From a virus, in IMG/VR virus record IMGVR_UViG_3300044697_000087, positions 1-39,765 of that record: a stretch of 39,765 nucleotides of DNA; one strand, written 5' to 3'. Both the position numbers and the translations under genes were made by a program. Of this stretch, positions 16,172-38,188 are shown piece by piece (positions within the stretch are counted from its first letter, which is position 1; each line of letters opens with the position of its first letter). The notes beneath the pieces are model-generated. The model did no database searches. It was not told where the DNA came from and saw nothing but the letters and a program-made list of their open reading frames with translations.

Positions 16172-19100
16172 TTATACTGAGTAACTAGAGGTAGCTCTAG
16201 TACACAGAAGGTTTCTGATAGCAGTATCCTGCGTTATAGCTTGGGCCTGCGCAAATTTCACCGCGAGGGTGGCATTTTGCGCGAGCATGCCCGAATAGTA
16301 TGGGTCCCTGTATATCAGGTTCATCGAATCAATCTATTACTTTATGACCAGAATACCCATTAATAATAGGAATTCTGGCGGGAAAACCACTTCGGATTCT
16401 CCTCTCTATGTTTCCATAGAGATTAGACTATCACATCTCCTTTCGAAGCCTCTGGGGTTAGTCGTTCAGGCTGAATGCAAATTAAAGAAACTATAACTTT
16501 GTTAAAAATCCCTAAAATGAATAAAACTTCTACACATTCTTGCCCCTTATCACCACCGTCTTTACGCTGCGGCTTCTAAGTCAATTACCAAAGGTTTTAC
16601 GTGGGCCATCGTAAATCTTAACCCATCCTGGTTTATATGCGTGATCGCCTGTTTTCCAACGACCGCATTATAGTAAACGTCTCTTCCGTTCTCCGACGCA
16701 CCGAGTGCAATTGGAGCTTCCGAGCTCGTTAGGATTCGGATGTTATACACCGATCCATATTCCGATGGCAACGCACTGGCGTTGGTCGGATAATTCCACT
16801 GGTTAATAAATCCGCTACCAGTGAGAGCATCGAGGTCCGATTGTAGTTCCGTAGAGCTCAGCATAAAATATGCCGAACGTACAGGGCCTGTACCGAATCG
16901 GTCCATCCCTTCGATACCGCTTAAAAACTTGTACAAAATCTGTTACTTTTGTGACCAAAAAAGTGTGTCTATAAGACTATTTATAGACACAATTAGTTTG
17001 GCGAGGTCACCTCTTCGGGTTCCCTTCCGTGATTTTATATATTTTCACGGCTCAGACTATCACATACGTCCTTGCGAACGTCCTCTGGGTTTAGTCGTTC
17101 AGGCTGACATTTCCAATGTGTTGTAGTATATGCAATCAACAACAAAGAACCCTTTAAAGAGGGATTAGTTGGCTTCCATGTGTCAAAATTGTAGCCATCG
17201 TAATACGTTTTTCCAAACATATTGTGTCTACAATCTTTTACCAAATAAATACCTTCTTTATCAGGCCATTTATTTCGAATGCTTATCCAATCCATATCTT
17301 GCCCCTTATTATCGCCATTTACGCAGCGACTTCTAAGTCAATTACCAAAGGTTTTACAACGCCTATAAGTTTAGCGTTATTTGTATCTAGGGTCGTTGCC
17401 ACGAGAGAAAAATCTGATACACCCAAATTAGTCGGATTATCATTATTAGCCCCGCCGCCTGCAAATATTTCAGAAGCAGCAGAAACGATGTAGTCGCGGA
17501 GGATAAGCATTCTGTTACTTTTGTGACCTATTTCTAGGCGGGAATCCCTCTTCGGAGACTCCTCACGACCTTTCTTTCTATCCGTCGTGTTCAGACTTTC
17601 GCATCCCTTGCGGGCCGCCTCATTAAGTCGTTCAGGCTGCTTGTGCTTGCCCCTTGTCACCCTGTCGGGCTTCCAAGTCGATTAGAGTCGGTTTATCGAG
17701 GACATTATCTTCATCCTCGGCTTGGCGCATTGCTACGGCTAACCTTTCGGATACCCAAGCTAACACCATTTACGCCAAGCTAAGAGGGCGTGTTATGCGG
17801 CTAAAGCCGAACCCTCTTGATCTTGCAGTATCACCTGTTCATTGATGACACAGCCGGTTCCAAAGAACTTTCTGTTACTTTTGTGACACAAAAGTTATAG
17901 AAACTATAACGTTTGTGCGGGCCGACCTCTTCGGATCAACCTCTCATAGTCACCTATGAGTTCAGACTATAGCATGCGGTCTCACGCTGCGAGGCCGCCC
18001 TCTTGGTTTAGTCGTTGCAGGCGAATATTCGCTTATATCAATTCCATTAAGAACTTTCATTTCCAGAAACATATCCCAGCGCTTCTTAATAGTTTGATCG
18101 TCAAAAGGAATCCCGATCCTCACCCCTTCTGGTCTTGTACATTTATCCAGAAATTTTAAGGCTAAAATGGCTTGAGGCTTCTTGAGTCTCAAGAATGGCA
18201 AAAGACATTCTAGAACATACTTCACGCCACCTTGATCTCGACAATCCCATCGATGCATTGCCCTATATCCCTTGTAACTTTTCTCGGGATAATATTTTCC
18301 CACTCGAAAGAACTCATAAACGCTTTTTATTGATCGTTCATCATTCATTCCGATTCGCACATAAGGGGCATATCCTGGATCGGTTTGTCTCATTTTTCCT
18401 TGCCATTTTGGCGAGTATCTTGAGTTTATTCCTATTGTACCTTCGCCATCAAAAAGTCCGGCAAAGTAAGCTAATTCTTCCTTCTGATTGTCTTGCATAA
18501 TACACCTCATATGGCACCGTATTATACAAGATGTCCCAGTTATTTACAAGAGGTTTTTCATGGCCCTCTTTTACGAAGCCATCTGGGCATCAATGATGTC
18601 CCTTTGTGGCACCTGGGCCGGTGGGTCGATCCCACTATTACCTAACTGTCGAGTCTGTTACTTTAATGACCTATCAACTTGATTATCATACCGATATTCA
18701 CCTTGATAGGCGAGGAAGCCTATTGCACTTCCCTCACAACGTTACCGTCGTGTTCAGAGCACCGCATCTCCGTTGCCATTCATCAAAATTTAATGACGAT
18801 TGGCTTCCATATTCAGGAATATTATTTAAAACGGAGTCTTCTCGCTTGCTGCGTTCACGGCATACAGAACAAATCCCATTGTGATAGGCACTTTCAGTTC
18901 TCATCTTTTCGCAAGAACTGCAAGTAAAACGACAAATTTCTGATTTATTCATGTATTTCCGCCTTTTTGTCCTTCTATGCCGCCAGGAGTTCAAAGTCTA
19001 TTAGAGAAGATTTTACTACCACACAATCTATGGTAGGTGGGACTAAGGGTCTTGGCCTCATAAATCTGCAAGTTGTTCCGCCGTTCACTGGCATACTGAC

Positions 19101-19211
19101 TTTATCGCAGACCAAAATATAATTCATGGTTGGGGTTGGAACGTACAAAAGTGCAGGCGCTAAGCTCTGCAAAATCATCGGCCCAAGGTTCCCTGTTGTC
19201 GTTATTGACAT
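16172..19211 (-). CDS. Major capsid protein, seven exons (N4-gp56-like)
   Basis: Reconstructed from exons 19211-19030, 18649-18577, 17867-17811, 17766-17713, 17507-17373, 16933-16621 and 16329-16172, joined in frame: 972 bases, 323 residues. Each fragment alone runs into an early stop. Joined, they give the family pattern MSITTTGNLGP, RFMRP, QLGNSG..PP, FFGT..VINEQV, MRQAED, RDYI, GGANNDNPTN, IEG.DRFGTGPVR, INQDGY and IYRDPYYSG...KFA. The joints fall inside conserved blocks without gain or loss relative to the family as I know it. Five interruptions are group I introns and one is a 44-base core-less element. The protein builds the icosahedral head with the scaffold at 21147. Splice sites are predicted from P1/P10 pairing and frame, not measured. 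Confidence 0.88.
16330..16620 (-). ncRNA. Group I intron A in capsid gene (291 nt)
   Basis: The 5' site follows GATGGGT, with P1 UGGGU paired to GCCCA and U-G at the cut. The 3' end is AATAGATTG. The core carries CUGAACGACUAACCC and GUGAUAGUCUAAU (R and S/P7-like elements, about 16420-16475). It contains no ORF. Its first part shares 28 identical bases with intron B (16573-16600 versus 17330-17357). Its 3' part shares 42 identical bases with the portal intron (16341-16382 versus 25932-25973). Splicing makes a Tyr codon from T and AT (INQDG-Y-SMN). Confidence 0.85.
16934..17372 (-). ncRNA. Group I intron B in capsid gene (439 nt)
   Basis: The exon ends AACGCT, pairing with GGCGUU (U-G at the site). 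The 3' end is AACAGATTTTG before TAC. P10 has five of six pairs (CUUAUA with UACAAG). The R/S core lies at about 17052-17105 (TGAACGACTAAACCC and GTGATAGTCTGAG). It contains an 86-codon ORF that overlaps the core. The joint gives NNA-YKF, matching family spacing to the conserved IEG.DRFGT.PVR block. Confidence 0.85.
17035..17295 (-). CDS. Intron B-encoded DUF551-like protein
   Basis: 86 residues starting MDWISIRNKWPDKEGIYLV, with YYDGYNFDTWKP and a late TTHW. The order WISV..LP..G.YLV / YYDG..F / THW is that of the small DUF551-type proteins common in phages. It lies wholly inside intron B. Its last 20 or so codons are the intron's catalytic core sequence, read as PERLNPEDVRKDV. It has no endonuclease motif, so it is not an evident homing enzyme. 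It may be a passenger gene. ATG at 17295 follows AAGGGGCAAGAT. Confidence 0.55.
   Translation of the reverse strand: MDWISIRNKWPDKEGIYLVKDCRHNMFGKTYYDGYNFDTWKPTNPSLKGSLLLIAYTTTHWKCQPERLNPEDVRKDVCDSLSRENI
17508..17712 (-). ncRNA. Group I intron C in capsid gene (205 nt)
   Basis: The exon ends GCCGAGGAT, pairing with GUCCUCG (P1, U-G at the cut). The intron ends AACAGAATG before CTTATCC. P10 is UUAUC with GAUAA, offset by one base. The core CTGAACGACTTAATG and GCGAAAGTCTGAAC lies at about 17590-17640. It has no ORF and is the shortest full intron here. The joint gives MRQAED-LILRDYI. Confidence 0.85.
17767..17810 (-). other. 44-nt core-less group I intron remnant or trans-spliced mini-intron
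   Basis: The insertion between GAG GGT and GTG TTA GCT breaks the capsid frame (TAA follows within seven codons). It begins after U and ends in G like the other introns. P1 is perfect: AAGAGGGU (17818-17811) with GCCCUCUU (17789-17782), U-G at the splice site. P10 is perfect over six pairs: UAACAC (17795-17790) with the 3' exon GUGUUA (17766-17761). The ribozyme core (P3-P8) is absent; only 15 bases follow P1. GCGTAAATGG near its 3' end equals a 10-base piece of intron B. Removal restores exact family spacing (QDQEG-VLAWVSERL). Confidence 0.75.
17868..18576 (-). ncRNA. Group I intron D in capsid gene (709 nt) with LAGLIDADG ORF
   Basis: The exon ends ATGGCT, paired with GGCCAU (P1, U-G). The intron ends AACAGAAAG before TTCTTTGG. 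P10 gives six pairs (AAAGAG with UUCUUU, including a G-U pair). The R/S core lies at about 17961-18022 (AACGACTAAACC and GCTATAGTCTGAAC). It carries a LAGLIDADG endonuclease gene whose 3' end overlaps the core. The joint gives QMA-FFGTG. Confidence 0.85.
17962..18498 (-). CDS. LAGLIDADG homing endonuclease in intron D
   Basis: 178 residues from ATG 18498, four codons after an earlier ATG. This one has GAGGTG at good spacing. Residues 9-20 read LAYFAGLFDGEG, the single LAGLIDADG helix ending in the catalytic acid. Then TIGI and a basic DNA-binding half with YRAMHRWDCRDQGGV and LLPFLRLKKPQA. One motif suggests a homodimer. It should cut intron-less capsid alleles and drive intron homing. The C-terminal tail (TTKPRGRPRSVRP) is read from the intron core. 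It appears intact, with no frameshift. Confidence 0.85.
   Translation of the reverse strand: MQDNQKEELAYFAGLFDGEGTIGINSRYSPKWQGKMRQTDPGYAPYVRIGMNDERSIKSVYEFFRVGKYYPEKSYKGYRAMHRWDCRDQGGVKYVLECLLPFLRLKKPQAILALKFLDKCTRPEGVRIGIPFDDQTIKKRWDMFLEMKVLNGIDISEYSPATTKPRGRPRSVRPHAIV
18650..19029 (-). ncRNA. Group I intron E in capsid gene (380 nt)
   Basis: The exon ends CTACCAT, pairing with GUGGUAG (seven pairs, U-G at the cut). The intron ends AACAGACTCG. P10 ACAGUU with GAUUGU gives six pairs including wobbles. The post-P1 segment TAAAATCTTCTCTAATAGACTT parallels that of introns A and B. The 3' end TTAAAGTAACAG is shared with the others. The R/S elements are less obvious than in A-D (GATGCGGTGCTCTGAAC at about 18750-18768), so the core may be diverged. 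It contains a zinc-ribbon ORF. The joint gives VPPT-I-QLGNSG. Confidence 0.78.
18734..18952 (-). CDS. Intron E-encoded zinc-ribbon protein
   Basis: 72 residues from ATG 18952, with an in-frame ATG 14 codons upstream. Residues 11-31 read C-x2-C ... C-x2-C (CSSCEKMRTES then ICSVCRERS), a zinc-ribbon/treble-clef arrangement like the N-terminal finger of HNH endonucleases such as the one at 20210. No HNH catalytic part follows. The C-terminal third is read from intron structural sequence. It may be a decayed HNH endonuclease or a DNA-binding cofactor. Confidence 0.55.
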   Translation of the reverse strand: MNKSEICRFTCSSCEKMRTESAYHNGICSVCRERSKREDSVLNNIPEYGSQSSLNFDEWQRRCGALNTTVTL

Positions 19212-19521: not shown

Positions 19522-21147
19522 TTACCCAAGCCTCATAGTAGACTTACGCTGCATCATTTTTTCGTAGGCGGCCTTTTTCAGTCGTTCTCTCGCTATTTCC
19601 GCATATTCCGATTCTTTTTCTATTCCAATTGAGCTAAATCCGAGGTTCTGAGCTGCAATGATAGTTGTGCCCGAGCCTGCAAAGGGGTCTAGAAGTAACC
19701 CATTTTCAGGTGGCATCACAAGCCGAATAAGATATTCCATGAGAAGAAGAGGTTTTACTGTAGGATGTTTATTCCCCTTCCCACGCTCTTTAGGAGATGT
19801 CTTTGAACAATAAAAAAAGCGTGAGCCACCTCCTTTAGAAGCTTCACATGTGTAAGTAGGATTGCGATAAGCATATTTTCCATAAATGGAATTTTTTTTA
19901 GGAGTAAAACAAGGAGAAACCTTTCCACTTTTTAATTCCCCAGTTTGTTCATCCAGATTCTTTGCCGATTCTTCGTCTAAGAGAAGTTTGGCAGGCCAGC
20001 GGCCTAAAGGTGATGTTTCATTTCCTCCGTTTCCTGTTGATCCCTGCTTAAAATTAACATTTCCGGTGCACGTTCCAGATCCCTTGGGGTTTTCTCCATT
20101 AGTCGGTATCCTACATCCATCAATGTTAATCCCCGCCTGTCCCCATTTCTCAGCATTCTGTTTGAAAGTGCCGTCGCACTTCTTCATAGCCATTATGATG
20201 GGTTGATAATCAGGGCTGAAATTTCCAGTGTCTTTTGAAATGGTCGGAGACAGACATGACTTCAAGATTTTCAGTTCGATTATCAAGTTTATCGCCGTTT
20301 TTATGGTGAACTTGTTCGCTCCTTGACAGAGACCTGCCAAGATGAGATTCCATAATAATCCGATGTTCAGCTCTGTAGTTACCATTGTGACGGAGATAGC
20401 GATATCCCGTATGCCGGCAAATATAACATCCTCCTCGCCACGAAGGATTCTTTTCTCCTTTGAATTTTCCGCTTTGCCATCGACCTTTGCACTTGTGCGA
20501 GCAAAAAACTCCTTCTCCCGATTTATCTTTTCTGACCATCCTTGCCAAGGGAATATAACATTCTTTATCGCAAGATTTGCATCGAAAAGTTTTTCCAGTT
20601 CGGAGGTTTTGACACTTTCTAGAGCAATATGTTTTAGCTCCCTGCTTAACCACACTTGGGAATCTCTCAAATTCTGATCCGCAGCGTTTACATCTAAGCT
20701 TAATTTTTGCCATTGGCATAATTCCTCTGTTAAATCGAGAAGAATTATACCTAAAATGTCATTAATTTCATAGGGTTTGGAACACATTATTATCGGTTCA
20801 TGCGCCGGTTTGAGAGCGGTTCCATATCCTTCTATGCCAAATTTGTTATGAGATTGGGGGAACCCACTGCCGTATATCCAGGCAATTGTATCCCGAATTT
20901 CCCACCCCGAATCTTCAATTGCCACTGCGAGTCGATGAGAGGTGCGTGTTCCCCCCATTGCAAGAAGATGACCACCTGGCTTGACGATTCTGAGGCACTC
21001 TCCCCAATATTCTTTTCCTGGAACAGCATGATCCCATCCTTTCCCCATAAAGGATAAACCATAAGGAGGATCTGTTACAATTGCCGAAAAATGGCAATCT
21101 TCAAATTTCTTCATCACTTCAAGAGAATCGCCGCACAATATTGTCAT
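19522..21147 (-). CDS. DNA methyltransferase (N4-cytosine/N6-adenine type) with inserted HNH gene
   Basis: 541 residues. TDPPYGL (25-31) is catalytic motif IV and LDPFAGSGTT (486-495) is the AdoMet-binding motif I; this order is the beta class. HPTVKP lies just before motif I. Residues about 122-318 are an insertion that is absent from usual relatives of about 350 residues. It lies where KPAHEPIIM should run into AMKKCDGTF, and PIIM appears on both sides. An HNH gene occupies the insertion in another frame, yet the methyltransferase frame has no stop through it. The start overlaps the scaffold stop by one base. Probably protects phage DNA from host restriction. Confidence 0.85.
   Translation of the reverse strand: MTILCGDSLEVMKKFEDCHFSAIVTDPPYGLSFMGKGWDHAVPGKEYWGECLRIVKPGGHLLAMGGTRTSHRLAVAIEDSGWEIRDTIAWIYGSGFPQSHNKFGIEGYGTALKPAHEPIIMCSKPYEINDILGIILLDLTEELCQWQKLSLDVNAADQNLRDSQVWLSRELKHIALESVKTSELEKLFDANLAIKNVIFPWQGWSEKINREKEFFARTSAKVDGKAENSKEKRILRGEEDVIFAGIRDIAISVTMVTTELNIGLLWNLILAGLCQGANKFTIKTAINLIIELKILKSCLSPTISKDTGNFSPDYQPIIMAMKKCDGTFKQNAEKWGQAGINIDGCRIPTNGENPKGSGTCTGNVNFKQGSTGNGGNETSPLGRWPAKLLLDEESAKNLDEQTGELKSGKVSPCFTPKKNSIYGKYAYRNPTYTCEASKGGGSRFFYCSKTSPKERGKGNKHPTVKPLLLMEYLIRLVMPPENGLLLDPFAGSGTTIIAAQNLGFSSIGIEKESEYAEIARERLKKAAYEKMMQRKSTMRLG
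20210..20719 (-). CDS. HNH homing endonuclease nested in methyltransferase gene
   Basis: 169 residues, out of frame with the surrounding methyltransferase. Two zinc-finger-like pairs come first (CKRCGSEFERF with CSRKC; CKSCDKECYI with CSHKC), then a linker with GYRYL. The HNH core is EHRIIMESHLGR with VHHKNGDKLDNRTENLEVMS, where HH, N and the following Asn/Glu are the metal-binding residues. GAGG precedes the ATG. This is the usual intron- or gene-borne endonuclease build. It likely cuts methyltransferase genes lacking the insert and spreads by repair. Intact. Confidence 0.88.
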   Translation of the reverse strand: MPMAKIKLRCKRCGSEFERFPSVVKQGAKTYCSRKCQNLRTGKTFRCKSCDKECYIPLARMVRKDKSGEGVFCSHKCKGRWQSGKFKGEKNPSWRGGCYICRHTGYRYLRHNGNYRAEHRIIMESHLGRSLSRSEQVHHKNGDKLDNRTENLEVMSVSDHFKRHWKFQP

Positions 21148-23946: not shown

Positions 23947-26207
23947 TTATACGTTAGCCCCTTCTTCCATCTGAGCATGGGCGCCCATCGCGTTCCCCAT
24001 GATCTGAGCCAAGAAGTCGTTGCTCATAGCCGTGCGCTTAGCATCCGCCTTCTCAGCATCTTCTTTCCCTTCCTGCTGATAGTCGAATTGATCGAGCTCC
24101 CGCATCTTGCGCGCTTCCTCTACTTCTCCAATTTTAATGCCCACGTCAACCATTTTCTCCAATGCCTCCATTTTAGCTTTGGTAGACATAGCGCGGTTGT
24201 GGGAGATCTCCGAAAGACGCTCTTCAAAGAGACCAATGTCGGCTTCAGCCCTTCCGTGGCGTTCCCGTGCGGTAGCGATATAAGACGCAGATTTTGCATA
24301 TAACTCCTTCAGCTTCGCTTCTTCTAGAGCGTGCTGAACTTGCGTCGCATGTTCCTGATTAGCGCCTGCTTTTTGTTCTTGTTGTTGGAGGAACTCCATC
24401 GCTTCGGCTTTACCCGTGATATTCATATCCTTGATAATGAAGCTAGGAGGAAACACCTCGCGACCAAACGCTTGGTTGATGTCCAAGAGCTGCTGCGCGT
24501 GTAGATTCTTTTGCGTTGGCGTGAGGTTGCCCTCTTCAACGATCGTCTGGAACTTAGCAAATACCCTTGAATAGAAGTGCTCAGTCGGCTCTTCCCCGAT
24601 GATCATGCGCACTTTGTCCGCATTCCAGTTATTCAGTACAATCTGAAGGCACACATGCCCAAGCTGTTTCAGTGCTAAATCCCACTGATCAAAGTACTTT
24701 TGCAATACGGTCAGATTCGCAGCTTGCTTGATCATCGTCGTAAGGGCGCTAGCGTTCTTGTCGTTCTGTGCAGACCAATTCTCGAGATCCACCCCCGATA
24801 CCCCAAAGATTAGGGTTCTGAGGCGATCAGCCAAAGCAAAATCCGACTCCGGTACTACGTTGGGCTGAATTTTCTCGCAGTCGGTCATCTCATAGCCTTC
24901 GTTGATAATCACGTCCCAACCTTGCCCCGACTTCTTGACGTTATCCTCATTCGCAACAGCGCCAACCTTACGCTTCCATCCAGCGTTAATCGTCGCTTCT
25001 TTCTGATCGTGAGAAATTATGATTTGGCGATTCATCAAGTAATTACAATCACGCATGCAACGCGTTAAGCCTCTTACCCTTAAATCATAATAATTATTAT
25101 GAGGTTCGTAGTTCCAGAGCATCGGAATAAACGGGCAATCTCCCGTCACGCCGAGCGGGTTGTCTCCCTGGAACATCAGCTGATCGTTTAGAACGACTGC
25201 CAACTTCCAACAAGGAACCTCCATCGTGACCGGCTCCATATCGGGGACCTGATAAAGGATCTGTTCCAGATTCGCTTCTCCCCCAGCAAAGTCGAAGAAT
25301 TGGTTCCTAGACCTGCTGTACAGCCTCTTTTTCCTCGTTTTCCACTTGTACCATACGTATGAGAGCACCATTAGGTCGTTCCGGGCCATATTATAATTCT
25401 CTGGGAGGAAGTAAAAGCTGCCATATCTTTGGGGCGTACCGCTCATCGGAGCTATATTTTCGATCTTATCTGGAAATCTACTTTCAGCCTCTTTTTTTGA
25501 TATATACTCCTGACACCAAATGAATTGCGCATCAGCAAAGTTATAATCCCGGGCATATGGATCCACGAGAAACGAGTTGTACTCCCACAATTTAACTTTT
25601 AATTCACCCTGTGCAGGATCGTCGCCAGTGTAGTCTAAATAGGGCTGTAAGAGAACAAGGCCCGTGATGCAGGCTTGCTCAGCCCCTCTTGAGAATTGCT
25701 CGTGGATGCCTTCCTTGTTGGCCACATGCGTCATTAAACGCGTGTATTGGTCCGTCGTCCGAGGGTCTGCGCCATCCGCAGGTATGTAACTGAACGTCTT
25801 ACGATGTTGGCGTTGATAGCCCGTAACCATGTTGATAGGTTGTTGCAGCAGATTAAAATAAAACTGCTGAAACCCGAGAGACGGGGTGTAGTTGAAGTAC
25901 CGATTGACGAACGTTTGTGCAAACTGTTACTTTTATGACCAGAATACCCATTAATAATAGGAATTCTGGCGGGGAAACCTCTTCGGATCTCCCTCCGCAA
26001 TTTCTTGTATCTTTGCGGATCAGACTGTCGCTTGCCTTTCGGCCCCTCTCGCTCAGTCGTTCAGCGTGCTTTCGCTTCGCCCTTGTTAGCCCATCGGCCG
26101 TCCAAGAAATCAGAGAAGGTTTATAATGCTGACCCTGCTCTTAAGCCAGCATAAAAAAGTGTGTCGATGTTGGATTGGTTCCATCTAGCCTGTTCTATCT
26201 CAGGCAT
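23947..26207 (-). CDS. Portal protein, two exons (P22-like)
   Basis: Exon 1 is 26207-26144 (from ATG, MPEIEQARWNQSNIDTLFYA) and exon 2 is 25919-23947; joined 2037 bases, 678 residues. The joint makes a Ser codon and gives FYAG-S-QTF, in register with FYAGDQ..W of P22-type portals. Downstream PINMVTGYQRQHRK, GADPRTTDQYT, LWEYNSFLVDPYARD and the helical barrel-like C-terminus (EEARKMRELDQFDY) fit the family. It forms the dodecameric ring at one capsid vertex through which DNA is packaged and ejected. Without splicing exon 1 ends within a few codons. Confidence 0.88.
25920..26143 (-). ncRNA. Group I intron F in portal gene (224 nt)
   Basis: The exon ends ATGCTGGCT and pairs over nine positions with GGUCAGCAU (P1, U-G at the cut). 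The intron ends AAAAGTAACAGTTTG. The core has GAACGACTGAGCG and GCGACAGTCTGATC at about 26020-26065 (R/S-like). No ORF. 42 bases near the 3' end are identical to capsid intron A. No clear P10 is visible. It closely resembles the capsid introns, so the same element has entered two essential genes. Confidence 0.83.
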
Positions 26208-26337
26208 TTACACTTATTTTATCAGCCCATAGATCAGGCTGAAATTTCGAGTAGAGGTTGTCTAACCACTGTCGAACGTTCACTTGATTCGGTTCTAATG
26301 CATTGTTCCAAGGGGGATAATAGAATGTGATAAATAC
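26200..26337 (-). pseudogene. Start-less coding-like fragment upstream of portal
   Basis: A frame of about 46 codons reads EVFITFYYPPWNNALEPNQV, then RQWLDNLYSKFQPDLWADKI, ending in TGA that overlaps the portal ATG (AATGCCTGA). It looks like real protein but has no ATG, GTG or TTG at its beginning; the first in-frame option is GTG, giving 27 residues. It could be a decayed gene, a short GTG-started gene coupled to portal, or chance. Confidence 0.35.
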
Positions 26338-26466: not shown

Positions 26467-26706
26467 TCACTCTTTGGGCTCAACCTGTCCCCACACGTGA
26501 TCTAAGTGGAGATGCATTTCTTCAATAGTGTATTTCAGCTTTTTCCCCGATAGACACGCAATCCCTAAACAGGAAAAAAGAGCCGCCATGCGTGAAACCT
26601 TCCTCTTTACCGTACACTTGCCGATTTCTTCCACTAAAGTGCGCACATTTTCGGCTAACTCCTCTGCTTGTTCGCGATTGAGTTTCCTTCGTTCATACTT
26701 TTCCAT
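26467..26706 (-). CDS. Small helical protein, paralogue family member
   Basis: 79 residues from ATG 26706, chosen because it overlaps the upstream stop; an earlier in-frame ATG is at 26742. All helical: ERRKLNREQAEELAENVRTL, then a hydrophobic helix (MAALFSCLGIACLSG) and YTIEEMHLHLDHVW. The pattern hydrophobic helix, (K/R)(E/K)(E/D), then ...W is shared with the genes at 26693, 26908, 27946, 28666 and 33594. Function unknown. Confidence 0.6.
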   Translation of the reverse strand: MEKYERRKLNREQAEELAENVRTLVEEIGKCTVKRKVSRMAALFSCLGIACLSGKKLKYTIEEMHLHLDHVWGQVEPKE

Positions 26707-26911
26707 TTTGTCCTTCCCCCTCCATCTGATCCCACGCCTCAAATGCTTGGCTCAGGAACTCTTTCTTCCGTAGTCCCATTTTAGAGGCGCAGTTCATTGC
26801 CAACGTAAGAGACAGGGCCATTCCTTGCCTAAAAGAGAGCCTCTCTCCTTCAAAAAAGGCAACAAGAGACTCGTAAATCGTTTCTAATTTTTCCGTTTCT
26901 TGCTCAGTCAT
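26693..26911 (-). CDS. Small helical protein, paralogue family member
   Basis: 72 residues from ATG 26911, which overlaps the previous stop (ATGA). MTEQETEKLETIYESLVAFF, then MALSLTLAMNCASKMGLRKK and EFLSQAFEAWDQME. It aligns best with the second half of the next upstream gene (TIYEKLIRFFAKEG..., LKKEDFIETATIAWERV). Part of a translationally coupled string. Confidence 0.6.
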   Translation of the reverse strand: MTEQETEKLETIYESLVAFFEGERLSFRQGMALSLTLAMNCASKMGLRKKEFLSQAFEAWDQMEGEGQNGKV

Positions 26912-27333
26912 AGGGGTCCCTTTTCCACTCGTTCCCAAGCGATCGTAGCTGTTTCGATAAAGTCCTCCTTCTTTAGATCCATGTCAATCGCCCCTTGAGC
27001 CGCCATAGTGAGAGTCACTGCTGTTATTTCCTTTACGGAGGTTCCCTCTTTCGCAAAAAATCGGATCAATTTCTCGTAAATCTCGGTCATTTTTTCTATG
27101 TTGTCCATCCCCCTCCTATGATCCCATCCATCGTCAATAAGTAAATGGATGTCTTCTCGAGATAAATCCGTGATTTTGGCACATCTAATTAGCACTCCAA
27201 TACACCCTAGGATCTTGGTTATCACCCTGGGATTTTTTTGACGGACAAATTCGTCAATATCTTCATGAAAAGAAGCTATCTCTTGAATCAAATCTTCTCT
27301 TTCTTTTTCTGTGAGCTCTTCTAATAATTTCAT
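26908..27333 (-). CDS. Helical protein with two family repeats
   Basis: 141 residues from ATG 27333, which overlaps the RNA-ligase stop. It contains two copies of the small-protein pattern: ILGCIGVLIRCAKITDLSRE with DIHLLIDDGWD, and TLTMAAQGAIDMDLKKED with FIETATIAWERV. It looks like a fusion or an internal duplication within the tandem paralogue cluster. No known domain. Confidence 0.6.
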   Translation of the reverse strand: MKLLEELTEKEREDLIQEIASFHEDIDEFVRQKNPRVITKILGCIGVLIRCAKITDLSREDIHLLIDDGWDHRRGMDNIEKMTEIYEKLIRFFAKEGTSVKEITAVTLTMAAQGAIDMDLKKEDFIETATIAWERVEKGPL

Positions 27334-27968
27334 GCAAAATCCTTGCACTTCAGCTTCCACATGATCGGATTTCCGTTTCTAAAGAGCATGAGGGGTTCGG
27401 ATCTGGCAACAATACCCTCCATCGTCTGCGACTCTGTGCTGCATTGACTAGGAGGATCTTGCGTAACGAACTCCACAATCTGCGATTCGCTCATGAATCC
27501 TAGGTCCGGCACCATAGGAACGCCTAATGACTCCGCAACCCCTTTCACGTCCTCTTGTTGAAGCCACCACTCACCCACACGTACATCAAATAGTATGAAG
27601 CCCGCTTCTTTGCGGTACTTACCTCCACAGGCCTGGATTTTGTGGCCGTACCCTTCGCCATAAAGGATGATGCGGGATTCCTTGTTTCCCTTAAAAACGC
27701 CCAGAAGTTTATCTGGAGGAAATAGTTCTTCTAGAGTTCTCAGCAAATGAGGCGGAATTTGAGCGTCATTCGTGCGTCCTGCAAACAGAACATCTTTCCC
27801 ACACCCAGGATCGCGGATTATCACCCTAATGTTGGTCCCATCCACCTTTTCCGATACGCGCCACCATCCAACGCTAGCGAACTCGGGCTGCGCATAATCG
27901 CCCATAATGAGCTCGCGTTTTGCGTCTATGCGTCGTTTCCACAGACTATGAATTTTTGGATATTCCAT
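27330..27968 (-). CDS. RNA ligase, Rnl2-like
   Basis: 212 residues. Nucleotidyltransferase motifs in order: motif I KVDGTN with the AMP-accepting Lys41, motif III ILYGEGYG (101-108), motif IIIa GFILFDV (123-129), motif IV MEGIVAR (183-189) and motif V WKLKCKDF (204-211). The N-terminus YPKIHSLWKRR is usual for small phage Rnl2-type ligases. It seals nicked RNA, as in repair of tRNAs cut by host anticodon nucleases. GGGAGG precedes the ATG. It is embedded among the helical paralogues. No kinase/phosphatase partner is seen. Confidence 0.85.
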   Translation of the reverse strand: MEYPKIHSLWKRRIDAKRELIMGDYAQPEFASVGWWRVSEKVDGTNIRVIIRDPGCGKDVLFAGRTNDAQIPPHLLRTLEELFPPDKLLGVFKGNKESRIILYGEGYGHKIQACGGKYRKEAGFILFDVRVGEWWLQQEDVKGVAESLGVPMVPDLGFMSESQIVEFVTQDPPSQCSTESQTMEGIVARSEPLMLFRNGNPIMWKLKCKDFA

Positions 27969-28167
27969 TCGTTTCCTCCCGAAGTTTTTCTTCTTCCATC
28001 ATGCTATCCCACACTTCCTCCACGCATTCGATGAACTCCCTCTTTGTAACGTTTCCTTTGATACATCGAAACACAACAAGCGATATCGAGGCCTCATTAA
28101 ACTCTTCGGGGCTGTGCTTGTAGTCCATAGATAGAAAAAATAATTTTTTGGCTACATCCTGGTTCAT
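27946..28167 (-). CDS. Small helical protein, paralogue family member
   Basis: 73 residues from ATG 28167 with GAGGGGTG upstream; a longer frame begins at 28200. The pattern FNEASISLVVFRCIKGNVTK then REFIECVEEVWDSM matches the family helix-KREF-W signature. Its end overlaps the RNA-ligase start by 23 bases. Confidence 0.6.
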   Translation of the reverse strand: MNQDVAKKLFFLSMDYKHSPEEFNEASISLVVFRCIKGNVTKREFIECVEEVWDSMMEEEKLREETNGISKNS

Positions 28168-28201
28168 TTCACCCCTCAAAAAAAATCTACGCAAAAGCAC
28201 A

Positions 28202-28459
28202 TTATAACATCCTTCTCCATAGACCCTTTAATCCCCTTTTAGAATAAACTATCGGGTGTTTCAATCTGAAGAAAGTTCTAGACCATCGAGTTCCTCCGAT
28301 TAGCCACCACTTATCAAGACTAACCCGTCTTTGTGCGAACTTGACACCAAGTGTCGCGGGCAAACACTGTTGCTTGCAATCTGCGGGAGGACGATACACA
28401 AAGCCACATCTCTCGTTCTTTTCGTCGAGAATGAATGTCACTCCGTTTTCTTCATTCAT
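28202..28459 (-). CDS. Hypothetical protein
   Basis: 85 residues: an N-terminal part with three Cys (NERCGFVYRPPADCKQQC) and a basic, Trp-rich C-terminus (VSLDKWWLIGGTRWSRTFFR; GLKGLWRRM). No family recognised. The start overlaps the stop of the 48-residue gene (ATGAATGA). It may bind nucleic acid, judging by charge. Confidence 0.5.
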   Translation of the reverse strand: MNEENGVTFILDEKNERCGFVYRPPADCKQQCLPATLGVKFAQRRVSLDKWWLIGGTRWSRTFFRLKHPIVYSKRGLKGLWRRML

Positions 28460-28598
28460 TTAAAAGCTCCTCATCGCTCTTTCCCTTGGGAGCCAAAGAC
28501 ACGTAAAGAGTCTTAGATGGATTGTTAATTGTAAGAGGAAGATCCTCTATATCAATCTCGATATATAACTCAGTGTCTGTTTCTTGAACTTTTCTCAT
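28452..28598 (-). CDS. Small acidic hypothetical protein
   Basis: 48 residues: MRKVQETDTELYIEIDIEDL, then PSKTLYVSLAPKGKSDEELL. Beta-leaning and acidic. ATG at 28598 directly follows the stop of the preceding reading frame, with GAGG at good distance. It overlaps the next start. Function unknown. Confidence 0.5.
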   Translation of the reverse strand: MRKVQETDTELYIEIDIEDLPLTINNPSKTLYVSLAPKGKSDEELLNE

Positions 28599-28697
28599 TT
28601 ATTCCTCGTATGGGTCGTATTGCACGTTCGTAGTCGCGGCCCCCTCTCGGATCGCCTTCTCATTATTATTTATCCGATCCTTCTTTCTTCTCTTCAA
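28599..28697 (-). CDS. Possible 32-residue protein with TTG start
   Basis: A TTG start gives KRRKKDRINNNEKAIREGAA then TTNVQYDPYEE, ending right against the next ATG. The C-terminal half looks protein-like and fills an otherwise empty gap. It overlaps the previous gene by 32 bases. The weak start keeps this uncertain. Confidence 0.35.
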   Translation of the reverse strand: MKRRKKDRINNNEKAIREGAATTNVQYDPYEE

Positions 28698-28917
28698 TAC
28701 ATGATCGCCAACATGCGCGGAAGATCATGATAACATCCTCCTCCGACATTGGAATGGTTTTGCTTATCATAATCAATAACTTAATAGTTGCTTCGAATCC
28801 TAATATACAGGAAGCATCTAAATCACCTAACAATTGCCACATCTTTTGTATTAGTATAGCTGATTGGGGCAACCCCCCTTTCTTTAAATCCTCTTCCATC
28901 CTAAATTTTTCCCCCAA
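28666..28917 (-). CDS. Small helical protein, paralogue family member
   Basis: 83 residues: FRMEEDLKKGGLPQSAILIQ, then GFEATIKLLIMISKTIPMSE and EDVIMIFRACWRSCIEEKKE. The second half fits the family pattern (hydrophobic helix, SEED, then ..W.S..EE). Its start lies within the last codons of the terminase gene (34-base overlap), so it is coupled to it. Confidence 0.6.
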   Translation of the reverse strand: MGEKFRMEEDLKKGGLPQSAILIQKMWQLLGDLDASCILGFEATIKLLIMISKTIPMSEEDVIMIFRACWRSCIEEKKEGSDK

Positions 28918-37123: not shown

Positions 37124-38188
37124 ATGAATCTTTGTACAAAACTGAGTGCCAGTTCTCGCCTTCTGTTAATAGAAATAAATAATCTTTGTAAAAAAGAAGG
37201 CCACTGCTGGGCTTCCAATCAATACCTTTCCGATTCTTTGCATATCAGCTTAGCTACCATTAAAAGATCCCTATCGAATTTACATCGCCACGGTCTGATT
37301 TCAATCGTTACAACAAAACTCTTTATCAAATGGGACAGGAAAATCTTCATTTCAGATGAAGTTAAAGAAATGTTTACGAAGGGTCATAAAATAATTTTTA
37401 CGAAGGCTCAAAATGCTCTGGTTCCGAAGGCTCAAAATGCTCTGGTTCCGAAGGCTCAAAATGCTCTGGTTCCGAAGGCTCAAAATGCTCTGGTTCCGAA
37501 GGCTCATTCAAATAATTTTTACGAAGGCTCAAAAGTGACCCTTCGCCGAAGGCTCAAAAGTGACCCACTACTATTAAGTACTAATTCTAATATTAAATTA
37601 AAATTAAGGGGGGACCCGCGCGCGCACACGACCCCCCCTGAAACTACCCAGCTTGAAGGGAAGGGCGGGGGCTCTGCCCCCTGCAACCCCTCCCCCTCCC
37701 TTTTTTTTGGAAATGTAGAACTTTCGGAAGAAGAGCACAGAAAACTCTTAGAAACCTACGGACAAGAAGTCACGGCTCAATTTATCGAGGAGCTAGATGA
37801 CTATTCACACCGAAGGCCCGACAAATTTTCCAAGGAAAGATCGCATTACCATGTTCTGAAAAAGTGGATAAAGAGGGAAAGAACTATGGAAAATAACCAA
37901 AAATTAGGACAAACTCCCCCTAAACCCAGACATCTTGAGGAAGTTTCTCTAGAAAAACACCGTGAACACGACCTAAAAAATCAACAGTTTGTCGAAAAGA
38001 TACGCCTACAATACGAAGGCCATGAGGAGTTGAACTTTTGGATCGACGGCATTCAATATTGGCCCAAAGGCAATAAGATTGGGATAACCGACAGATCTCT
38101 GGAAGCTAAGTGCACAGATGTTAATTTTAAAGAAAACGCCATTTTCATCTTGAGAAAATTGGAACTGTCGCCAATGGCCTTAACTTGA
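37124..38188 (+). CDS. Replication initiator with embedded origin
   Basis: 354 residues. Residues 8-65 are a winged helix (SSRLLLIEINNLCKKEGHCW, ASNQYLSDSLHIS, ATIKRSLSNLHRHGLI) as in lambda-O/DnaD-like initiators. Residues about 87-130 are four copies of KAQNALVP encoded by the iterons. A low-complexity linker follows. VELSEEEHRKLLETYGQE...FIEELDDY...HYHVLKKWIKRE is the C-terminal element usual in phage replication proteins. It should bind the iterons within its own gene and bring in the host helicase. CAGGAGATCC precedes the ATG. Confidence 0.8.
   Translation: MNLCTKLSASSRLLLIEINNLCKKEGHCWASNQYLSDSLHISLATIKRSLSNLHRHGLISIVTTKLFIKWDRKIFISDEVKEMFTKGHKIIFTKAQNALVPKAQNALVPKAQNALVPKAQNALVPKAHSNNFYEGSKVTLRRRLKSDPLLLSTNSNIKLKLRGDPRAHTTPPETTQLEGKGGGSAPCNPSPSLFFGNVELSEEEHRKLLETYGQEVTAQFIEELDDYSHRRPDKFSKERSHYHVLKKWIKRERTMENNQKLGQTPPKPRHLEEVSLEKHREHDLKNQQFVEKIRLQYEGHEELNFWIDGIQYWPKGNKIGITDRSLEAKCTDVNFKENAIFILRKLELSPMALT
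37378..37638 (+). other. Replication origin: eight iterons, AT-rich tract, GC-rich palindrome
   Basis: CGAAGGCTC recurs at 37401, 37425, 37449, 37473, 37497, 37522 and 37547, with the variant CGAAGGGTC at 37378, at steps of 23-25 bases. AATAATTTTTACGAAGG stands at both edges (about 37389 and 37511). Directly after is an AT-rich run (37567-37607), then GGGGGG (37608-37613), CGCGCGCGCACACG and CCCCCCC (37632-37638). Iterons inside the initiator gene followed by an unwinding region is the lambda ori plan. No experiment is available. Confidence 0.75.

Follow-up and report, generated by a model that had tools for sequence, protein, structure and literature searches.

The 42-base identity between the portal and capsid introns of this phage is best read as a short hairpin cassette that moved between two members of one group I intron family. 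The same family comprises capsid introns that would append Ala-Ala degron tails to the product of unspliced message, and is accompanied by mini-introns that would be served by the catalytic core of a neighbor. From the sequence comparisons set out below, we put this combined reading at a probability of roughly 0.7. A narrower proposal, that the capsid introns act as a protein quality-control device and are joined by core-less satellite introns (some with a homing endonuclease) spliced by a neighboring core, seems to us evenly poised between right and wrong.

The window analyzed here is the whole 39,765-nt stretch of IMG/VR record IMGVR_UViG_3300044697_000087, and all material analyzed is metagenomic DNA. 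Self-comparison of the window revealed that its first 154 bases are repeated at the 3' end with one mismatch, which marks it as a phage genome that is complete or circularly permuted. The minus strand carries the structural genes, among them a portal gene identified by its match to PF16510 (E=3.7e-45) and a capsid gene matching phrog_1357, 'major head protein' (E=1.3e-17). No relatives of the major capsid protein (MCP) were found among annotated phages and no tmRNA gene was found in the window, while matches to metagenome-assembled genomes gave inconsistent host predictions (Nitrospiraceae, Bacteroidales, Chlamydiia and others). The portal gene begins with ATC; among 66 portal relatives the start codon, which follows a GGAGG-like site, is TTG in 18, ATG in 12, ATC in 11, ATT in 10, ACG in 8, GTG in 5 and CTG in 2, and such frequent near-cognate non-AUG starts perhaps serve to keep portal expression low. 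Between terminase and portal lies a series of small ORFs that resemble each other (26467-28917, minus strand), two of them 40% identical. Near the portal gene there is also an RNA ligase (27330-27968, minus strand; PF09414, E=6.7e-18), which the introns probably do not need, as only 5 of 80 relatives' loci have one. A DNA methylase ORF (19522-21147, minus strand) contains an open in-frame insertion that conceals an HNH endonuclease in another frame (20210-20719), and may be likened to the ShiLan element (PMC11855218). A 24-bp tandem repeat (CGAAGGCTCAAAATGCTCTGGTTC) occupies 37389-37566, within ORF 37124-38188.

Splice sites were placed by protein-to-DNA alignment against relatives with uninterrupted alleles of these genes (L016 and L061 for MCP, L001 for portal; L numbers denote loci). 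Five introns, ranging in length from 205 to 709 nt, and an insertion of 44 nt interrupt the MCP gene, and the portal gene has insertions of 224 and 37 nt (Table 1). At every one, U precedes the start, G stands at the end, and the 5' exon end is base-paired with sequence just inside the insertion. The sequence-only reading had counted six introns; six do carry a core (exactly those matched by our covariance model, R1: five in MCP and one in portal), but it overlooked the two core-less insertions. Intron D2 holds a weak LAGLIDADG ORF (17962-18510). Intron B has, where a homing endonuclease would sit, an ORF (17035-17295, minus strand) with weak likeness to DUF551 (E=0.02), a possible cargo gene.

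Table 1. Coordinates of the repeats, genes, insertions and in-frame Ala-Ala tails in the window.
Feature	Coordinates	Strand	Description
42-mer copy 1	25932..25973	-	P9.2 terminal hairpin and 3' strand, intron P; 12 nt before 3' splice site
42-mer copy 2	16341..16382	-	P9.2 terminal hairpin, capsid intron A
28-mer in intron A	16573..16600	-	J1/3, P3 5' strand, J3/4, P4 5' strand, J4/5
28-mer in intron B	17330..17357	-	Same P3-P4 block as in intron A
MCP gene	16172..19211	-	Alignment to intron-less relatives and phrog_1357
MCP exons	19211-19030, 18649-18577, 17867-17811, 17766-17713, 17507-17373, 16933-16621, 16329-16172	-	
Portal gene	23947..26331	-	Exons ~26331 (ATC start) to 26236, 26198-26144, 25919-23947
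Portal intron P	25920..26143	-	224 nt, phase 1; GGCT^...TTTG^; R1 162 bits
Portal core-less mini-intron	26199..26235	-	37 nt; CAGCCT^...GAG^; 7-bp P1; frameshifting; internal stop
Capsid intron A	16330..16620	-	291 nt, phase 1; predicted read-through tail ...VKPLVIDLEAAA-stop; R1 130 bits
Intron A Ala-Ala-Ala-stop, in frame	16562..16573	-	Located in P5
Capsid intron B	16934..17372	-	439 nt, phase 0; DUF551-like ORF; tail ...LVIDLEVAA-stop
Intron B Val-Ala-Ala-stop, in frame	17319..17330	-	
Capsid intron C	17508..17712	-	205 nt, compact, complete core; R1 201 bits; tail AQAA-stop
Capsid core-less mini-intron	17767..17810	-	44 nt; GAGGGT^...AAATG^; 8-bp P1; tail EG^SALAA-stop
Capsid mini-intron Ala-Ala-stop, in frame	17793..17801	-	
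Capsid intron D2	17868..18576	-	709 nt; immediate stop (S-stop)
Capsid intron D1	18650..19029	-	380 nt, phase 2; tail ...LIDFELLAA-stop
Intron D1 Ala-Ala-stop, in frame	18975..18983	-	

The layout common to the family runs P1, J1/3, P3, J3/4, P4, P5, P6, J6/7, P7, P3', P8, P7', P9, P9.1 and P9.2, followed by GUAACAGnnnG, and P2 is absent. In the 33 compact introns on which R1 was built, 95.6% of cells are paired when P3 is written as a pseudoknot, P3 itself is 98.3% paired, both partners vary in 40 of 50 pairs, and the splice-site U.G is seen in all introns except one (32/33); the outer P7 pair past the bulge occurs as A-U, G-C and U-A variants. The covariation score of 0.678 compares with 0.196 for shuffled and at most 0.146 for slid structures. 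The six core-bearing insertions, having the P3-P7 pseudoknot, the P4-P9 core, guide-sequence pairing with U.G and a terminal G, are on these structural grounds group I introns whose splicing is predicted. The best RF00028 score, 27.6 bits for intron A (the sole intron scored), stays below the gathering score of 50, which is a family threshold and not a structural criterion. Group I introns of other phages (T4 td, nrdB and nrdD, SPO1 and Twort; RF00028) have in common with ours P1 with its guide sequence and U.G, the P3-P7 pseudoknot, P4-P6, P8, P9, the terminal G, homing endonuclease genes (HEGs) in loops and several introns per gene; the present family differs in lacking P2, in its sub-gathering Rfam score and in placing five introns in one capsid gene. 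Across 53 relatives' loci R1 matched only in MCP and portal genes, one weak match in L005 excepted, and the majority of loci retrieved by the 3' end motif have an MCP homologue. Members also occur in P22-type coat genes, other capsid families and ribonucleotide reductases, and in MCP alone the family occupies more than 40 insertion sites.

Both identities reported by the sequence-only reading hold exactly, 42/42 between the portal and capsid introns and 28/28 between introns A and B. The 28-mer, which had been offered as a further sign of recent spread, fails in that role because its P3-P4 block is conserved across the intron family. The repeated peptide KPLVIDLE, which this block would encode, was rejected as being primarily a protein domain; its codons are the P3 5' strand, J3/4, P4 and J4/5, and P3 covaries there on both sides. 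Setting aside the overlap of the contig ends and one tandem repeat, no other exact repeat in the window is as long as the 42-mer, whose chance expectation in 39.8 kb is about 4e-17 by arithmetic with uniform bases. Both copies stop 11-12 bases short of the 3' splice sites, and an exact 31-mer of the hairpin was found nowhere else in IMG/VR.

What the two introns have in common is nearly confined to this hairpin, where A and P are 0.94 identical, against 0.67-0.71 elsewhere. Over the last 62 nt their exact run is the longest among 4,348 different-site pairs, although in core similarity they stand at the 30th percentile of the same pairs. For P the nearest core belongs to the portal intron at the same site in L035, and A ranks only 69th of 95; the cores nearest to A are those of introns of other phages (L126, L021 and L023), with the same-site MCP intron of L387 sixth and P 64th of 95. 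The cores of A and P are thus not mutually closest, as those of an intron duplicated within one genome would be. If each intron were closer to same-site introns of other phages than to the other, ectopic copying would lose its footing; this relation holds strictly for P, while A is nearer to its same-site counterpart than to P, yet a same-site intron is not its closest. Since the hairpin is near-identical while the cores rank as distant, these comparisons point to a hairpin cassette having moved between A and P rather than an intron, and the earlier claim of a recent relation stands for the hairpin patch only. Recent copying of the whole intron between the two genes, whether through reverse splicing under an altered guide or through copying of DNA, would account for an exact 42 nt within one genome, and entire 3' ends are indeed common to different sites elsewhere in the family; but A and P differ in P3, P5, P6 and P8, their cores are no more alike than those of random family members, and their nearest cores lie in other phages. 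We rejected it on the core ranks and consider it very improbable. Reverse splicing in general remains unproven (PMC3984707).

The sequence-only reading was correct that these introns, with their different guides, occupy non-homologous exon sites, and that the family spreads to new ones. Its notion of spread within one genome fares less well: exact 3' runs of 42-67 nt within the last 110 nt are common between different sites in different phages, and within genomes there is only a small excess of sharing (2/83 pairs, compared with 33/11,528; permutation p=0.022). Because such runs repeatedly link different-site introns of different phages, ectopic spread is, on these comparisons, real but a habit of the whole family, exercised mostly between phages. 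We therefore favor a model in which the 42-mer, as the terminal P9.2 hairpin common to a pair of introns from one family, passed between them in the form of a short cassette. Recombination via the conserved flanks (CCGAAGNGGTTT..CCCGCC and GGTCAYAAAAGTAACAG) is the most likely route, which we infer, and each intron core follows a separate history.

Most group I introns present a stop codon directly past the 5' splice site (PMC3073962; PMC3984707), in contrast to many capsid introns of this family, in which an in-frame tail is predicted to read through P1, P3 and P4 and to end in P5 or P6a after Ala-Ala. In the combined filtered set of 157 insertions, Ala-Ala stands directly before the first stop 55 times in frame 0 and never in frames +1 and +2 (55, 0 and 0); the corresponding counts are 43, 0 and 0 for 101 insertions of close relatives, and 38, 0 and 1 of 139 in a distant, less well aligned set. 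These tails occur at 54 of 122 MCP insertions past residue 60, at 1 of 19 before it, and at 0 of 16 portal sites (residues 8-51), a difference between late MCP and early plus portal insertions (1/35) with Fisher p=1e-6; as such counts include related, non-independent introns, the better measure is by site, and 21 of 44 late MCP sites have an Ala-Ala tail. A length-fair test counted Ala-Ala-stop motifs anywhere within the first 160 nt; of the 39 GCNGCN-stop occurrences past residue 60 that lie outside the core P6 motif, all but one are in the exon frame (38/39; p=2e-17). Late sites keep the P3-P4 block in the reading frame of the exon in 96 of 118 instances (p=1e-26), early sites in 10 of 25; all three insertion phases occur, and therefore the lengths of P1 loops must compensate.

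The position of the tag varies. It lies in P5 in A, B and D1, in the P6a loop in L073 (..EQYALAA-stop), and between P1 and P3, not in P5, in the P22-type coat gene of MW202674 (..DAYFLLAA-stop). In mini-introns at MCP residue 104 (r104) it is internal (SALAA-stop, KLAA-stop or MAA-stop), and in several at residue 88 it is RLAA-stop or RLVA-stop, derived from the next exon read out of frame. A tag is present in 1 of 18 introns directly downstream of a mini-intron, and in 42 of the 81 that do not follow one (p=4e-4). Roughly half of the late introns have no Ala-Ala. Nor is the tag strictly confined to capsid genes, as an anaerobic ribonucleotide reductase-like gene in L330, identified by its likeness to a Desulfovibrio phage protein, has the tail SLAA-stop. 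In one MCP family (L370, L382 and others) introns near the C-terminus have the tail KPTLH-stop. A second class of tails, often constant within a phage, is found in distant MCP loci such as L131, L121, L125 and L201 (VVALS, VVAYS, EVVFN and YGVS), and may represent another, host-specific degron.

From the frame and position biases we conclude that the tail peptide is under selection. Since a terminal Ala-Ala is what chiefly determines targeting by ClpXP (PMC7652416), the tails are most simply read as an ssrA-like degron, and we propose that such a degron marks the product of unspliced capsid message, inferring degradation of that product from the analogy. Past about residue 60, read-through of the 5' splice site would append a short Ala-Ala tail (often LAA, once EQYALAA), and ClpXP-type proteases would remove the truncated capsid protein, sparing assembly from poisoning. 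Like the ssrA tag that tmRNA adds, and like other ClpXP degrons with Ala-Ala (PMC7652416), the tails would place ...LAA, in frame, at the C-terminus of incomplete proteins; they differ from the ssrA tag proper in being encoded by intron DNA and normally translated, and are known here from sequence. No precedent for intron-encoded degrons was found in a literature search that covered few subscription papers. A close comparison is the mycobacteriophage LittleE (JF937101; L399), whose major capsid gene likewise has a group I intron, shown to splice during infection (PMC3706429), with a read-through ending AAA-stop. LittleE differs in having a single intron and an HNH gene on the opposite strand, and its tail may be structural since the AAA-stop codons sit in a GUAA-capped RNA hairpin.

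We identified 30 short insertions with U before the start, G at the end and a P1 of at least 6 bp. In 29 of the 30 a core-bearing intron follows downstream at a distance of no more than 35 codons; the remaining insertion sits at the end of a contig. Neither mini-intron of the window has a catalytic core of its own, only P1 and the G end, and for this reason we do not class them as group I introns but as elements obeying the same splice-site rules. The r104 element is 44-56 nt long in three phages, including that of the window, and 950-974 nt in L020, L023, L025 and L080; in these four longer forms P1 is intact and its loop holds a double-LAGLIDADG ORF of 288-296 aa. Model R1 found no catalytic core inside the insertions of L020, L023 and L025, and in all four loci a core intron adjoins the element. 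Common splice rules and an obligate neighbor suggest that one core serves two introns, such that core-less mini-introns would be spliced by the intron immediately downstream.

Several other explanations deserve consideration. The Ala-Ala-stop codons could be a by-product of P5/P6 RNA structure without any protein signal, as the P6 strand GCAGCSUGA is conserved and does yield AA-stop, and LittleE provides a hairpin of the kind required. This core P6 motif, however, falls in random frame (6/12), unlike the motifs outside the core; accordingly we rejected counting every AA-stop as a tag, and excluded the tail of intron C from the tag evidence because it derives from that motif. Tags moreover use all four Ala codons and all three stops, vary in site among P5, the P6a loop, J1/3, the mini-intron P1 loop and the next exon, and are nearly absent at early sites, all of which makes an RNA by-product unlikely. 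We give slightly less credence to translational coupling, wherein ribosomes would stop and restart on the intron ORF without degradation of the product: a Shine-Dalgarno-like AAGGGG and an ATG do follow the stop in A and B, but tags also end compact, ORF-less introns (L073, and L379 with ..ALLAA-stop), and coupling does not require Ala-Ala.

Essential genes interrupted by short inserts that contain stops or frameshifts are known from the T4 gene 60 bypass and the mitochondrial byps, and the mini-introns are alike in this respect. Programmed bypassing by the ribosome would suit their short length (29-65 nt), internal stops and a hairpin past the take-off point, but not the occurrence, at several unrelated sites, of a P1 with its U.G on the 5' boundary together with a G on the 3' boundary, nor homologous r104 insertions too long to be skipped; nor would it need the neighboring intron that 29 of 30 have. 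These features point to splicing, and we disfavor bypassing, to which we assign the same low standing as to coupling. Least probable of all is that mini-introns are dead remnants in broken gene copies, which the missing core would allow; P1 pairing is kept at all sites, exon frames are intact, many phages with otherwise intact genes have such insertions, and every carrier would lose its MCP or portal protein. A different set of insertions, 47-51 nt long at portal residues 36-37 in L019, L047, L050, L055, L065 and L076, folds into an almost perfect hairpin (about 17 bp) flanked by CGG on the 5' side and CGN on the 3' side; most have a stop two codons in, and they have no U, P1 or nearby intron. 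These are candidate ribosome bypass elements, or another excised element, and may resemble the T4 gene 60 bypass more closely than the mini-introns do.

The hairpin comparison implies that the parts of an intron move independently, and that brief identities must not be counted as jumps of whole introns. Mini-introns dependent on a neighbor would form a new intermediate between ribozymes that act on their own and splicing that is shared. Protection of the host gene by an intron is usually ascribed only to splicing out and to the stopping of ribosomes; the introns described here seem, in addition, to mark the product of failure for destruction, chiefly where that product would be large. The tag idea thereby offers an explanation, open to test, of how a gene that is highly expressed and critical to assembly may tolerate five or more introns.
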